From positions 1 to 38,669 of the IMG/VR virus record IMGVR_UViG_3300009551_000033: 38,669 nucleotides of DNA; one strand, written 5' to 3'. Both the position numbers and the translations under genes were made by a program. Under the pieces are notes generated by a model. The model made no database searches, had not been told where the DNA came from, and saw nothing but the letters and a program-made list of their open reading frames with translations. Source of the DNA: a virus. This document shows positions 14,900-38,669 of the stretch, piece after piece (position 1 is the first letter of the stretch; the number at the start of each line of letters is the position of its first letter).

Positions 14900-15430
14900 T
14901 TAATCCTCCTTACGAATGCACACAATCATGGTGATTCGCTCATAATTTGTAGGGTTTGTCACCCAATGCAGGAACTGGTTATTAAACCAATAAAGATCAC
15001 CAGGCTTTGATTCAAGAGAGCCATCTTCAAAGCAAAACTCTTGCCCCGGCGCGCTCGTAATCTGGATTGCATATTTTTGATACTTGGCTGCATGCCAACC
15101 AGGATCAATATGGGGACGGCACTCTTTGCCAGCAGGAATACGCGTGATCAGCACGCCACCCAGCTCTGTTCCTCCAACCGCATGCATCACATCAAGGCAG
15201 ATCTTCTTGATCCGCAGAATATCGGCAGATGGATACCAAACAGATGATTGTTCTTGTGTCGGATTGGAAGGTACAAAGCGCGCCCAGATATCATCTAGCC
15301 CATAATGAGGGCTGTCTTTTGATTCAGTACGGGCGGTGTTTTCATTCCACAGTTCAGGATGTTGATGAAGCGCCCAATAAATAGGTGCAACATTCAATCC
15401 TTGTGCAATGAGCTTGATATGGTCAGACAT
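14900..15430 (-). CDS. 2-oxoglutarate/Fe(II) oxygenase-like (Asp/Asn beta-hydroxylase type)
   Basis: A protein of 176 residues; ATG 15430 lies eight bases inside the upstream cupin gene. The double-stranded beta-helix motif is complete: PHIDPG gives His107 and Asp109, LHWVTN gives His155, and NYERI gives Arg165 for 2-oxoglutarate. The GQEFCFEDGSLESKPGDLYW strand-loop is typical. A hydroxylase of virion or host proteins, or of nucleic acid, is possible. Its location between the tail hub and ejection genes suggests a late-stage substrate, perhaps a particle protein. Substrate is unknown. Confidence 0.75.
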   Translation of the reverse strand: MSDHIKLIAQGLNVAPIYWALHQHPELWNENTARTESKDSPHYGLDDIWARFVPSNPTQEQSSVWYPSADILRIKKICLDVMHAVGGTELGGVLITRIPAGKECRPHIDPGWHAAKYQKYAIQITSAPGQEFCFEDGSLESKPGDLYWFNNQFLHWVTNPTNYERITMIVCIRKED

Positions 15431-15755
15431 GGCCGCCTTCGATAATGACGTTATCGATTTTCTCCGGATCAGTGCAATCCGTTGCATGGCAGCATAACCA
15501 TACGACATCCGTCAAGGCATGAACCTGATGGATTTTATCTGCTTGGACCGTGAGCGCTTCAGGGCCTACCATCGTTCGGGTCACGTGCCCGTCGATAACC
15601 AATTCTACCTTACCAGACGCCAAATACGACAAATGCTCAAAATTATGCTTGTGCTTTTCACCCATTTCACCAGCCTTGAAATGAGTTTCTTTGATGTAAA
15701 TTCCGCCGCCAAAATGATGCTTGATTGGAAGAGAGCTAACGTCAATTTCTTTCAA
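15423..15755 (-). CDS. Cupin-fold protein
   Basis: A protein of 110 residues with a single cupin: metal-site residues His35, His37 and His41 in GEKHKHNFEHLSY, then SGKVELVIDG, a glycine turn and the second motif HQVHALTDVVWLCCHA. It has about the minimal length for one cupin. It overlaps the oxygenase gene by eight bases, so the two are probably translated together and may act on one pathway. The C-terminal Cys cluster is unusual. Catalytic or merely sugar-/metal-binding function cannot be decided. Confidence 0.75.
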   Translation of the reverse strand: MKEIDVSSLPIKHHFGGGIYIKETHFKAGEMGEKHKHNFEHLSYLASGKVELVIDGHVTRTMVGPEALTVQADKIHQVHALTDVVWLCCHATDCTDPEKIDNVIIEGGHV

Positions 15756-15988
15756 ACTGCACCTCCTGATGCATTAACCCATCCTGGCCCCTTGTACCAA
15801 ATAGGGATGCCAAGAGAAGTATCAAAATAAGTCCGTCCCACCCAAAGAAGCTTTGTCGGACGGTTCGCTGTAGTTCCGCTTTGCGTCAATGCAAAGCAAA
15901 TCGTGTACACAGATTGGAAAAATGCCTGCCAACCATTTCCAAGTACGGTTTCTACGTTAGTAGCTGGGACTGGGTTGATAAGTGCCAT
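15752..15988 (-). CDS. Small virion-associated protein, unknown
   Basis: A 78-residue protein coupled on both sides (shared base with the tail-hub stop, four bases with the cupin). The end, RPTKLLWVGRTYFDT and IPIWYKGPGWVNASG, resembles short carbohydrate-binding or fibre-tip segments found in phage proteins. A small tail accessory (for example a needle or plug) is plausible from its place after the gp10-like gene, but this is inference. Confidence 0.65.
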   Translation of the reverse strand: MALINPVPATNVETVLGNGWQAFFQSVYTICFALTQSGTTANRPTKLLWVGRTYFDTSLGIPIWYKGPGWVNASGGAV

Positions 15989-17394
15989 TAGTTATCCGGA
16001 TTGATAGTTGCGCTAATCAAAGTAAAACTGAACGGGTCATTCATCCGAAGCTTGAATACAAAATCACGCGACGTTCCAAGCCTATTCCACTCAACAACAC
16101 GCCTGTAATTACCAGTCGGGCCCACATCAACAAGCATTTCAGCACCATATGTTCGCCCATTGTCACGCGACACAGACAGCCCAATTTGCGGACGTTCTAA
16201 GCCTGGATCGCCCATGCCAACTTGCATATCTACACGAACTTTACCAATCGACAATTGCAATAGATCTGGATCGCTGACATTCTCACTGATGATCTGAGAT
16301 TCGATCTGATCGCCGTTATCTGTGTAGGCAGTATTGGTAAGCCTATACAGCATCCCATTCGAATAATCAGAAACAATCGTGTACGTCATAAACGACATAC
16401 CAAGATTGGATCTGTGACGCGTAATACCAAAACTCTTTAGTCGAGACCAGATCTGAGTAAATCCGTCATAAAGCCAAGTATCGCCAGCAGTCGGGAAGTT
16501 GATGACATACATGGCATGACCGCCAAGCATGTACGAATATGACACCGCATCACTTACCGTTGAATATCCGTTGATAATATTGTCTACATCTGGATTACTT
16601 AGCTTAAGTGGCGAATAACCATCCAACTTAGCAATCATGACTTGACCAAGCTTATTACGAGCCAAGAACGCTAGTGAGTTGTCATATTCAGCGACACTCC
16701 AAATAGCCGCCAAACCCCACTTAGTGGCTGTCCCTTGAATTGATGCAAAAGCCTGATTGGTATCAGTACTGACGCCAAAAAATTCAGTAGTTCTCGTACC
16801 AAAAAGAACCGCCTGACCATTCAAATTCCATACTGCTACGTTTGGATCCGGATTGGTCTCAGCATTGGTAAAATTAAGCGCATCCCATGACAAACCGTCA
16901 TATGCATCGGACCAATAGAAACGGCTTTGCTGGGCAAACGTGACAATGAATCGCCCGGCCAAAAAAGTAACAGTGGTTGGACTAGCTGGAAAGTCTGTAT
17001 CAGTGATCTGGCTGAAAACACCAGTGGTCGTATTGTAGATATACCCAAACGTACCATCCACAATCATGATCTGATTGCCGTTATCAGCAATCGAGCATTG
17101 GCCTGTGAATGTCAGAAGAGTTCCGATAGCCGTTAAAGATCCAGCCGCACCTACCTGATAAAACTTGTTTTGAAACACTGCATATGCAGATTCGTTTTTA
17201 TCGAATGCATAAAGTGCTCTGGCCGGAGAAGTTCCGCCATCAACAAACGACACAAGCCCCGGCGTTTTGTATCCAACAATCGTCGATTTCTCACCTGCAG
17301 GACGCGTCTCAAAATACATATTTTGAGGGTTCTTTGCAGTGACATATGGGGACTTGCTTGCCATCCCCATGCCGAATAGTTGGATACGAGCCAT
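15988..17394 (-). CDS. P22 gp10-like tail hub / packaged-DNA stabilisation protein
   Basis: A protein of 468 residues, very near the 472 of P22 gp10. The family outline is clear: an N-terminal SPYVTAKNPQNMYFE, a beta-propeller-type series of short strands, and IGKVRVDMQVGMGDPG with QIGLSVSRDNGRTYG near the end. In P22 this protein closes the portal and carries the tailspikes and needle. Order (gp4-like, GroES-like, then this) keeps it in its P22 place with one insertion. Confidence 0.85.
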   Translation of the reverse strand: MARIQLFGMGMASKSPYVTAKNPQNMYFETRPAGEKSTIVGYKTPGLVSFVDGGTSPARALYAFDKNESAYAVFQNKFYQVGAAGSLTAIGTLLTFTGQCSIADNGNQIMIVDGTFGYIYNTTTGVFSQITDTDFPASPTTVTFLAGRFIVTFAQQSRFYWSDAYDGLSWDALNFTNAETNPDPNVAVWNLNGQAVLFGTRTTEFFGVSTDTNQAFASIQGTATKWGLAAIWSVAEYDNSLAFLARNKLGQVMIAKLDGYSPLKLSNPDVDNIINGYSTVSDAVSYSYMLGGHAMYVINFPTAGDTWLYDGFTQIWSRLKSFGITRHRSNLGMSFMTYTIVSDYSNGMLYRLTNTAYTDNGDQIESQIISENVSDPDLLQLSIGKVRVDMQVGMGDPGLERPQIGLSVSRDNGRTYGAEMLVDVGPTGNYRRVVEWNRLGTSRDFVFKLRMNDPFSFTLISATINPDN

Positions 17395-17801
17395 TAATCC
17401 TCCGGAGGAGCGTTCTTAATGAACACCGGATTGCCGTCTCGCGAAAAACCAGCAAGATCGCCTTCGCGGCAAAGAATATAACGCTTACCCTCAATCATGA
17501 TTGGCTCGCCACCAGATTGATATTTACCGAACGTAACCCAATCACCTACTTTCACACGCATTGGTACTTCGTGGCCGCCCATATGATGACCGGAAGCATC
17601 AAGATAAGAAGAAAACACCCGGCCAGGCCCAACAGCAACAACACGACCGCAAGGAAACTTTTGTTCGCTGCCAACCAAGATAATCCCACCACCGGTCTTT
17701 TCTTCCTTATGCTGCTCAATCACCACAATGTCCGACAAAGGAATCATCGGGAAACCTTCAGCGGCTTGACCTTCAAGTTTTGCTTCAAATTGTTCAGACA
17801 T
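17394..17801 (-). CDS. GroES-like co-chaperonin
   Basis: A protein of 135 residues. The GroES fold signature is strong: MIPLSDIVVIEQ, a Gly-rich mobile-loop-like EEKTGGGIILVG, GRVVAVGPGRV, VKVGDWVTFGKY and a closing YILCREGDLAG. It is longer than host GroES (97 residues) because of an extended N-terminus, an insertion after the GPGR turn and a C-terminal extension. No GroEL is present, so it would work with host GroEL, as T4 gp31 does, probably to fold the coat or another virion protein. It shares a base with the gp10-like start (the two genes abut). Confidence 0.82.
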   Translation of the reverse strand: MSEQFEAKLEGQAAEGFPMIPLSDIVVIEQHKEEKTGGGIILVGSEQKFPCGRVVAVGPGRVFSSYLDASGHHMGGHEVPMRVKVGDWVTFGKYQSGGEPIMIEGKRYILCREGDLAGFSRDGNPVFIKNAPPED

Positions 17802-17818
17802 GTAATACCCCTTTAAAG

Positions 17819-18517
17819 TTAAAAGCCCTTATATAAAAAGGCGTTTGAAATATCGTCGTATTTTTGGTCGAATGGAGTGTTCATTTCCAAAGGCTGGAAA
17901 TTGGTTCTCTTCAACACTGCTTTTGCTTTTGTTGCTTTTGCTTGCAGCGATGCAGGCGGCTCACCGCCCTTAAAACTTTCCCAAATTTCTACCGCCAAAT
18001 TACTTACGATTGCTGACTCATAGCCTGCTGGCATCACCAAATCATCCGAAAGTGTCAATGCCGTAGTGCCGCCCAGCGGATAATTTGCTGTTACCGTACA
18101 TGTGAAATCAGCATACGGGACAGGGTAAAAATTCATTTCCCCATCAGGGAAATTCGGGTTGTAATAACATTGATCAGGAATGGATTGGGTCAGCTTGTAG
18201 CTGATTTCATTCCACTTATAAAGATCGATGAAAGTCACATCGTAATCAATGTTATTCAGCCGCACCTTCATCGCGGTAATTGCAGTTGGACGGCCTTTAG
18301 GAAGTACGCTTGTAAGGTACGTCGCAACGCCAGCCGTCATTGTAAACGTCGCCACTTCATTGTTGAAGATCATTTGCCGTTCGTTCGTCCACGAATCAAG
18401 CATTCGATTCAGCCAACGAAGAATCAGTTGAGCATCCCCAGCATACAATGTCTGATCTTGGCCCAATACTTTGGCTTCAAACGCTGCATCCTGGCAGAGA
18501 GTAGCGACGGTAGTCAT
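17819..18517 (-). CDS. P22 gp4-like portal-tail adaptor
   Basis: A protein of 232 residues. TTVATLCQDAAFEAKVLG, then LILRWLNRMLDSWTNER and a YYNPNFPDGEMNFYPVP segment are typical of podovirus gp4-type adaptors that bind below the portal ring. It is longer than P22 gp4 (166 residues). Located after the coat and one small gene, as in P22. It shares one base with the upstream gene. Confidence 0.8.
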   Translation of the reverse strand: MTTVATLCQDAAFEAKVLGQDQTLYAGDAQLILRWLNRMLDSWTNERQMIFNNEVATFTMTAGVATYLTSVLPKGRPTAITAMKVRLNNIDYDVTFIDLYKWNEISYKLTQSIPDQCYYNPNFPDGEMNFYPVPYADFTCTVTANYPLGGTTALTLSDDLVMPAGYESAIVSNLAVEIWESFKGGEPPASLQAKATKAKAVLKRTNFQPLEMNTPFDQKYDDISNAFLYKGF

Positions 18518-18997: not shown

Positions 18998-20239
18998 TTA
19001 TGCACTGACTTGCTGAGTTGCTTGTTCTGGGTACGGGGTCGCCCAGCCATACAAAGCGTCAACACGATTCCCAACGGTATCAGAAGAGATCGCAGCCTGG
19101 CGGAAGACACGCAGCGAGAAGCCATCTTGAGCACGCACAGCACCCCAGCCACCGAACTCAGCCAGGTCAACCATCTTGACGACAGCCAGTTCAAATGCAT
19201 CCTCATGCCAGCCAAGGTTACGAGCATACGAGGTGTTGGCAGTACCGGAAACAGTCAGCAGAGCACCCGATGCCGGAGCGCTGGTAACGTTTTGGAACGG
19301 ACCAGCGGAGATAATCGCCGGGCTGATGGGGATGGTGGCGTTACCCGAACCATCGGACGAGGTATCGGAGATCGCCACAAACTGCATCAGTTGGCCGGTC
19401 GATTGCTTGGTGACAGGGTTGACGGAGAACACGTTTGCAATGGTGAACACATCGCCAGCACGCAGACGCAGACCAACAGCAGCAGTCCAACCGTTGGTGA
19501 TCAGGTTGCCGGTGTTAGCCCAACCAGAAACCAGCGATTGACCAGCGCCGTTCACAGCCGGCGTACCACCCAGCGGCCCAACCAGTTGACGGGCAACGTT
19601 CTGAGACATGGCGATCTTCAGACCAAGAGTATTGGTGCTGTCAACGAAGATGCCATCTTCATACTGTTGACCAACCAGTTTTTGCTGATTGAAGAAGCCA
19701 GTCAGCGATGCGATTTGCGATGCGGTAGTACCTTGATCGCCAACATAGTAGCGGCCACCATCGCGCGGAGCGGAGAAGTCATCCAGCTTCTTGCCGATAT
19801 CCAGCAGGAACGAAACGTTGTTCGGCGAAGTGCCCGGAGTACCGGTCAGGTTGCCAACGGTGTTTTTCGCGTTGATATAGCCATCGATATCGATCTGTTG
19901 GGCCAGTTGGATAGCACCGGGCTTGATAACACGATCCGAGAAGTCTTGCAGTTTCAGGGTCAGATCAGCACTGGTGAACGAAGTATCGATGTGCTTTTGC
20001 TGGTTGACAACCAGAGGAATCGAGGTTTCGGTGTAGTCTTGGCCGGAGAAAGCTTGACCAGTCGAGACAGTGAAACGAGCAGGGCGGCGGATATTGATGG
20101 TATCGCCGATCTTCATCGCTTCTTTGCCGAATTCCTTCTGCCATTTGCGAGAAACCTTCTTGCCCAGGACGATATTGTTCGCCAGGACTCGAAGAGTTTC
20201 ATCAGTGTACATTACCGGGTTCTGAAAGCCATTTGCCAT
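18998..20239 (-). CDS. P22-like major coat protein
   Basis: A 413-residue protein, close to the 430 of P22 coat (gp5). N-terminal MANGFQNPVMYTDETLRVLA, then KWQKEFGKEAMKIGDTINIRRP and SFTSADLTLKLQDFSDRVI match the P22-type HK97 fold with its insertion domain. The C-terminal block GWHEDAFELAVVKM and SLRVFRQAAI is also typical. It would form the icosahedral shell. Downstream of scaffold and followed by a terminator. Confidence 0.9.
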   Translation of the reverse strand: MANGFQNPVMYTDETLRVLANNIVLGKKVSRKWQKEFGKEAMKIGDTINIRRPARFTVSTGQAFSGQDYTETSIPLVVNQQKHIDTSFTSADLTLKLQDFSDRVIKPGAIQLAQQIDIDGYINAKNTVGNLTGTPGTSPNNVSFLLDIGKKLDDFSAPRDGGRYYVGDQGTTASQIASLTGFFNQQKLVGQQYEDGIFVDSTNTLGLKIAMSQNVARQLVGPLGGTPAVNGAGQSLVSGWANTGNLITNGWTAAVGLRLRAGDVFTIANVFSVNPVTKQSTGQLMQFVAISDTSSDGSGNATIPISPAIISAGPFQNVTSAPASGALLTVSGTANTSYARNLGWHEDAFELAVVKMVDLAEFGGWGAVRAQDGFSLRVFRQAAISSDTVGNRVDALYGWATPYPEQATQQVSA

Positions 20240-35830: not shown

Positions 35831-35896
35831 GACTACATCGCAGCACACAAACAAATGTGCAACCTGGCAGTAACCACCAATCACAGGGGAATTGAG

Positions 35897-36412
35897 ATGC
35901 AAACCACACTGAACAAAATCCGCGAGCATTCACCGTGCCATGAAGGCTGGTCTAAGTTGCTGCGCACCCTCAACAAGACCAAGGCCGACGATGAACCGCT
36001 GTCCATCATCACCGTTTTGGACAGTAATGGACTGGATGACGCGCTGTGGTGCTTGCGCGCCGTCGCCGGACATGACCGTGAAATTCGCCTCTTCGCTGTG
36101 TGGTGCGCTCGTCAAGTTGAGCACCTGATGAAGGATCAACGAAGCAAAAATGCGATTGATGTCGTGGAGCGTTTTGCAAATGGCGAGGCAACACAAGATC
36201 AGTTGGCCGCTGCCAGGGCCGCTGCCAGGGCCGCTTCCTGGGCCGCTGCCTGGGCCGCTGCCTGGGCCGCTGCCAGGGCCGCTGCCTGGGACGCTGCCAG
36301 GGCCGCTGCCAGGGCCGCTGCCAGGGCCGCTTCCTGGGCCGCTGCCTGGGCCGCTCAAGAAAAAGAACTGCGCCGCATCTGCGCTCAGATCGAAATGCGC
36401 GCTACTGCCTGA
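35897..36412 (+). CDS. Phage protein with alanine-rich repeat tail
   Basis: A 171-residue protein. ATG 35897 has AGGGG upstream; the earlier in-frame ATG has no ribosome site. The N-terminus (GWSKLLRTLNKTKADDEPLS, then LDDALWCLRAVAGHDREIRL) is a helical domain widespread in phages. The C-terminal part is a chain of AAAR/AAAW repeats encoded by a 12-bp tandem DNA repeat, ending in a charged helix. First gene of the rightward early arm, so made early. Function unknown. Confidence 0.75.
   Translation: MQTTLNKIREHSPCHEGWSKLLRTLNKTKADDEPLSIITVLDSNGLDDALWCLRAVAGHDREIRLFAVWCARQVEHLMKDQRSKNAIDVVERFANGEATQDQLAAARAAARAASWAAAWAAAWAAARAAAWDAARAAARAAARAASWAAAWAAQEKELRRICAQIEMRATA
36209..36352. repeat. 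12-bp tandem repeat with 12 phased CCWGG sites
   Basis: GCCGCTGCCAGG-like units repeat about 12 times, each with one CCWGG (from 36213 to 36349, exactly every 12 bases). It encodes the Ala/Trp/Arg repeat of the protein above. Copy number is likely to vary by slippage. Confidence 0.9.
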
Positions 36413-38322: not shown

Positions 38323-38669
38323 CATCACAGTAGCAGGTCAATTAGGCCGCGATTCCGAAGTCCGTTATCTGCAAAACGGTGATGCTGTATGCGGGTTTAG
38401 CGTGGCCGACAATCAAGGCGGCAAGGACAAGCCGACTTTGTGGTGGTCCTGTGTGTTGTTCGGCAAACGCGCTGAGACGCTGTCGCAATACCTGGTGAAA
38501 GGTCAGCAAGTTTCGGTTAGCGGATCCCTGACAAAGCGCATTTGGAAAGACAAGGAAGGAAACGAGCGTGAAGCCCTTGAGTTGCGCGTGGCTGATGTAG
38601 CTTTGCAAGGAGGCAGACCGCAAGAAGCGGCGCAAAAGCCAGTAGCAAAAAAGCCTTCTGGTGGTGGAG
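38315..38669 (+). CDS. ssb: Single-stranded DNA-binding protein, N-terminal part
   Basis: The 5' part of the SSB gene, cut by the contig end and continued at 1-194. MNNITVAGQLGRDSEVRYLQ, then DKPTLWWSCVLFGKRAETLS and VKGQQVSVSGSL are OB-fold SSB segments. It starts inside the end of the Erf gene, showing translational coupling. Confidence 0.93.
   Translation, partial: MNNITVAGQLGRDSEVRYLQNGDAVCGFSVADNQGGKDKPTLWWSCVLFGKRAETLSQYLVKGQQVSVSGSLTKRIWKDKEGNEREALELRVADVALQGGRPQEAAQKPVAKKPSGGG
38547..38669. repeat. Terminal direct repeat, right copy
   Basis: Identical to bases 1-123 (see there); the two copies delimit one genome unit. Confidence 0.95.

Follow-up and report, generated by a model that had tools for sequence, protein, structure and literature searches.

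A GroES-type co-chaperonin with an enlarged roof among the virion genes of a P22-type virus, probably a lid for host GroEL

How a virus of the P22 type might use a co-chaperonin gene of its own, placed among its head and tail genes with no chaperonin beside it, is the question raised by a stretch of viral DNA of 38,669 nucleotides (IMG/VR record IMGVR_UViG_3300009551_000033, positions 1 to 38,669, referred to here as the window). The coat protein of P22 is a model for chaperonin-assisted folding. The original prediction had described a clear co-chaperonin with extra N- and C-terminal segments between gp4- and gp10-like genes, in a record lacking GroEL, and on each of these points it has held up (Table 1). 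The favored reading, which is probable rather than secure, is that the gene supplies a phage lid of the GroES type, produced together with the virion proteins, which would cap host GroEL and serve in folding proteins of the head and tail, the P22-fold coat being the likeliest of these. The parts of this reading differ in strength. Action of the protein as a GroEL lid is very likely; the chances that the coat would be its main client stand at about even.

Table 1. Positions of the co-chaperonin gene, its segments and its neighbors in the window
Feature	Position	Strand	Details
gp10-like head closure/stabilization protein	15988..17394	-	468 aa; downstream of GroES; PF11134 Phage_stabilise 3.6e-6; PHROG 578 head closure 3e-97
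Cpn10/GroES-type co-chaperonin gene	17394..17801	-	135 aa, ATG start; Pfam PF00166, PHROG 3188, GroES fold from the model and from comparison with PDB
C-terminal tail	17397..17447	-	Residues 119-135, outside Pfam match; similar length in 6/6 lineages
Enlarged roof segment	17547..17621	-	Residues 61-85; hairpin in model, strands 60-67/73-80, DASGH (68-72) at tip
Mobile loop	17649..17699	-	Residues 35-51; GG-I-I-L; from alignments
N-terminal extension	17748..17801	-	Residues 1-18, outside Pfam match; variable across clade except conserved FP at 17-18
Gap between gp4-like gene and GroES	17802..17818	-	17 nt; contains Shine-Dalgarno-like AAAGGGG
gp4-like head-tail adaptor	17819..18517	-	232 aa; upstream of GroES; SU10_adaptor 2.8e-9; PHROG 637 head-tail adaptor Ad3 1.3e-4
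P22-type coat protein, presumed client	18998..20239	-	413 aa; PF11651 1.6e-39

That the gene product is a genuine Cpn10/GroES protein is confirmed by both sequence and predicted structure. Its match to the Pfam Cpn10 model (56.8 bits, E = 2.3e-15, curated cut-off 21.1) covers residues 19-118, PHROG 3188, annotated “co-chaperonin GroES,” matches at E = 5.1e-15, and all 17 solved structures matched in a sequence search at E ≤ 0.001 are co-chaperonins, with Cpn10 of T. thermophilus at the top (5.6e-12). The AlphaFold2 monomer, predicted from an input that included 18 phage sequences, is a barrel (mean pLDDT 77.9, pTM 0.70) assigned to the Cpn10 β-barrel fold by both Foldseek (31 PDB matches at E ≤ 0.001; 5opx, 6.2e-7) and VIA-align 2, in which co-chaperonins come first (Z 11.3, 98 residues, 2.4 Å); a fold of some other type, named at the outset as grounds for abandoning the prediction, was not what emerged. 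Alcohol-dehydrogenase-type chains fill the lower VIA rows, with Z up to 6.6. The gene is the single Cpn10 detected in the whole record, and a Cpn60/GroEL search that was positive in 14 of 14 control genomes gave no match in it. An antisense open reading frame at 17346-17816 (+) was dismissed as a mechanical overlap with the gene. Formation of a heptameric ring and ATP-dependent binding to GroEL would be expected of such a protein, the models themselves being of single chains.

Family match, barrel fold and a mobile loop of the GG-I-x-L type are shared with bacterial GroES, from which the window protein differs in being virus-borne, in having terminal extensions, in having no GroEL beside its gene and, above all, in its roof. 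Across 53 aligned Cpn10 domains, the roof segment, taken as the residues that G60 and G86 of the window protein enclose, measures 25 residues in all six lineages of the window clade, as against 15 residues in 29 of 30 bacterial GroES proteins and 14 in the other. It is 12-16 residues long in eight marine-type phage proteins, three further Cpn10s found on bacterial contigs have 15, 17 and 19 residues, and the six other Cpn10s from P22-type phages divide evenly between lengths of 15 and of 6-7. The model of the window protein presents the roof as a long β-hairpin with moderate confidence (block means 73-74), and a tip motif, [DN]A[SA]G, is conserved in the clade. In the model of the L005-type protein, which has a lower mean pLDDT (71.5) and values below 50 in the mobile loop (34-48), strands again occupy both roof arms and the tip is longer. 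The GG-I-I-L of the window mobile loop we take to be the GroEL-contact motif; GG-I-x-[LF] is found in 6/6 lineages, and the hydrophobic tripeptide in the window is I-I-L. Counted by eye on the alignment, the loop has 17 residues, compared with 18 in bacterial copies. It is through this loop that GroES contacts the GroEL apical domain, according to the account in PMC5780408.

T4 gp31 had been put forward as the precedent for a phage-supplied lid needed for coat folding. As described in PMC6318259, gp31 is essential for the folding of gp23 and is able to replace GroES; it is without roof loops, and its mobile loop is longer, features thought to enlarge the chamber for gp23. Both proteins are phage GroES-type lids without a phage GroEL, and their folds match (VIA Z 7.5-8.3), with 12-14% identity in the structural alignment. 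However, the roof that gp31 lacks is not only present in the window protein but 10 residues longer than in bacteria, and the mobile loop is of ordinary length. The precedent is therefore a fair one for a possible mode of action and a poor one for the roof, whose enlargement the original prediction had missed and which sets the protein apart from gp31 in the feature usually invoked, as PMC6318259 presents it, for the special role of gp31. Judged by its parts, in sequence and model, the window protein would work like GroES, without the two features that distinguish gp31.

The surroundings of the gene are those of a virion operon. On the minus strand the order runs from terminase through P22-type portal (2.9e-153), scaffold, P22-type coat, a 131-aa gene and the gp4-like adaptor to GroES and the gp10-like head closure gene, followed by a 78-aa gene, a cupin gene, a hydroxylase-like gene and an ejection-type protein. 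Portal, coat and gp4/gp10 tail genes are thus present in the order of a P22-type carrier, the gp4-like gene matching an SU10-type adaptor, not P22 gp4 itself. The Shine-Dalgarno-like motif lies 6 nt ahead of the GroES ATG, and the GroES stop and gp10 start overlap in TAATG. Promoter-like sites (4, with 7.7 expected) and terminator-like sites (9, with 7.0 expected) give no evidence for either signal. An exact direct repeat of 123 nt at the termini (1-123 = 38547-38669) indicates that the record is probably a complete genome. In the proposed mechanism a GroES-type ring would cap host GroEL, presumably late in infection, and the capped GroEL would help to fold the phage head and tail proteins, most likely among them the coat.

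Related viral records show how closely the gene is tied to this position. Scans of viral contigs gave 10 loci with the coat profile, 5 with gp10 and 71 with GroES, the last mostly marine-type sequences. Cpn10 is present in 6 of the 11 records from the coat and gp10 scans and in two further records (L032 and L033), and in all eight it lies between gp4 and gp10; Cpn60 was found in none of these eight, some of which are short fragments. Besides L002, a near-identical copy of the window, they represent five lineages (L004, L005/L007, L006, L008 and L032/L033) with coats 63-87% identical to that of the window. In the five records where Cpn10 was not found, L009-L012 (coats 42-47% identical) and L016 (gp10 47%), gp4 and gp10 are directly adjacent. 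Among the records examined, the gp4-gp10 position of GroES is peculiar to the window clade. One lineage alone among the relatives, L008, has an extra 193-aa open reading frame between gp4 and GroES (L008:10562-11143). Nine unannotated phage records similar to the window protein were also found by tblastn, and may, at a guess, be bacterial carry-over.

These comparisons bear on two readings in which the protein would not be a working lid at all. Its place among virion genes would suit a virion structural protein reusing the GroES fold, but this is very unlikely, as the mobile-loop motif is kept in 6/6 lineages and relatives with adjacent gp4 and gp10 have no GroES, which argues that it is not a required tail joint. 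Still less credible is a recently captured host groES carried as a passenger, for which the bacterial ancestry of the Cpn10 family is the point in favor. The six window-clade proteins form one clade (support 100/97) with mutual identities of 43-84%, in a tree that rests on 92 columns and has several long branches. In one informative pair, L005-L006, nonsynonymous and synonymous divergence (pN 0.13, pS 0.70 in GroES; pN 0.11, pS 0.62 in the coat) points to purifying selection on GroES; beyond this pair dN/dS is unreliable because synonymous sites are near saturation. A bacterial near-copy was likewise not seen, there being no match at E ≤ 1e-20 among the candidates listed from 396, 385 and 369 sampled genomes, in searches run without a bacterial positive control. 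With the same profile, the phage members from which it was built score between 1e-63 and 1e-70, and one housekeeping GroES reaches 1.3e-12. The passenger reading is disfavored by synteny, by selection and by the structure of the clade. With regard to deeper ancestry, trees forcing the window clade together with the six other P22-phage Cpn10s (p-AU 0.551, a slightly better tree) or with the marine set (p 0.287) are not rejected, and a common origin of the window-clade and other phage Cpn10s is neither shown nor rejected by the sequences.

If the protein is a lid, what it helps to fold becomes the central issue. The coat is favored because of the gp31 precedent for gp23 and because GroEL/S in vivo binds and rescues destabilized P22 coat, more so than wild type, as reviewed in PMC2267774. 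The GroEL cage is said to take about 60 kDa (PMC5780408), a size into which a 413-aa coat fits, so that enlargement of the cage would be unneeded. As GroEL/S has been linked chiefly to mutant P22 coat, a coat of the P22 fold could do without a special lid. Also counting against a link between coat and lid, the relatives with coats of 42-47% identity do without Cpn10 at the gp4-gp10 site, and ten of the 14 named phages carrying a P22-type coat have no detectable Cpn10. Moreover, GroES and coat identities show no co-divergence over 15 non-independent pairs of lineages (Spearman -0.05), a result that speaks against close co-evolution of lid and coat and would suit either local gene exchange or adjustment of the lid to the GroELs of different hosts. 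The starkest mismatch is seen in L004, whose coat is the nearest (87%) and whose GroES is the furthest removed (47%).

Such uncoupling is what would be expected of a lid matched to host GroEL or to infection load, supplementing or displacing host GroES while GroEL serves many phage proteins. Over the same 15 non-independent pairs, GroES identity is likewise uncoupled from that of portal (0.00), scaffold (0.21), gp4 (0.07) and gp10 (0.17), the mobile loop of L004 itself differs (two extra residues, I-I-F), and GroES occurs in phages with unrelated coats. Fixation of the gene within the virion operon in 6/6 lineages, and its retention with this coat group only in the records examined, speak against this explanation, which is judged a possible but lesser candidate. 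Less probable again is a main client among the products of neighboring genes, gp4 and gp10 included. GroES lies between these two genes and overlaps the gp10 start, and both products are of cage-compatible size, but gp4 and gp10 diverge to 29-41% identity between lineages, where GroES stays at 43% or above. Because other P22-type phages place Cpn10 beside the terminase or portal, neighborhood is in any case a weak guide to the client. A lid for host GroEL that assists the virion proteins, with the coat as leading candidate, remains the preferred reading.

Co-chaperonin genes in other phages place the finding in a broader context. The original prediction regarded such a gene in a P22-type virion operon as unusual, which overstated its rarity. 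From coat and gp10 matches, 14 diverse named phages with P22-type coats were chosen before their Cpn10 status was known, and four of them have one: Xanthomonas phage PBR31, DSL-LC05, ctn9Y15 and cta1H496, the remaining ten being without detectable Cpn10. This is a count within P22-type coat phages and claims no enrichment over phages at large. All four records annotate GroES; unlike in the window, the gene lies upstream of the terminase, on the side away from the portal, in PBR31, ctn9Y15 and cta1H496, and between terminase and portal in DSL-LC05. The main text of the DSL-LC05 paper (PMC10611076) gave no mention of GroES or chaperones in a term search. Of 52 loci in bacterial genomes that have a P22-type coat, at least two also have Cpn10, inside the fetched flanks in Paraburkholderia L111 and further out on the same contig in Methylococcales L117/L201; this is a lower bound, since inspection beyond the flanks covered only eight weak-scoring regions. 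GroES is also found among head genes in ct2G2228, ct2os315 and HTVC027P (upstream of the capsid gene in the last) and between terminase and presumed head genes in Caulobacter phage RW; it is described as part of the core genome of HTVC023P-type pelagiphages (PMC9599517) and is marked on roseophage genome maps (PMC10149686). The placement of GroES near head genes thus recurs among phages and was already known, and the bare finding of a phage with GroES is ordinary. Marine-type GroES proteins are only 27-30% identical to the window protein and lack its enlarged roof. In a literature search that covered few subscription journals, no paper turned up that dealt with a phage co-chaperonin having an enlarged roof, or with a GroES gene inside a P22-type operon.

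The roof varies in both directions among these P22 relatives, being enlarged in the window clade, ordinary in PBR31 and absent in DSL-LC05, ctn9Y15 and cta1H496. One speculative suggestion is that P22-type phages have changed the GroEL lid both ways, by a larger roof hairpin and C-terminal tail in the window clade and by deletion of the roof in others, so that the roof might act as a dial that sets the volume of the cage or its specificity for clients. Were this true, the enlarged roof would mark a lid specialized for the virion proteins of the clade by a route opposite to the opened roof of gp31. Lids with enlarged, ordinary and missing roofs offer a natural series for probing the function of the GroES roof, and the same series may be used to ask which of the two, client or host GroEL, a phage lid is matched to. 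The three roofless proteins (L165, L166 and L167) are also without a clear GG-I-x-L mobile loop. In L166 (ctn9Y15, MW202674.1) the annotation splits the P22-type coat gene into two parts separated by a small open reading frame, and the coat match is in two pieces as well.

Attempts to identify the host yielded no tRNA in the window and no match to the GroES profile in genome contigs. Two further features of the window are of separate interest. The cupin and aspartyl/asparaginyl hydroxylase-like genes of the virion operon (14900-15755, minus strand) overlap each other, and both fall just below the Pfam cut-off; L002 has both, the cupin gene occurs in four of the other five lineages and the hydroxylase in three, with the L032/L033 records possibly ending before both. 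An open reading frame at 35855-36412 (+) contains, at 36205-36355, a tandem repeat of 12 nt (GGCCGCTGCCAG/TG type) in at least 10 units, which encodes an alanine-rich repeat.
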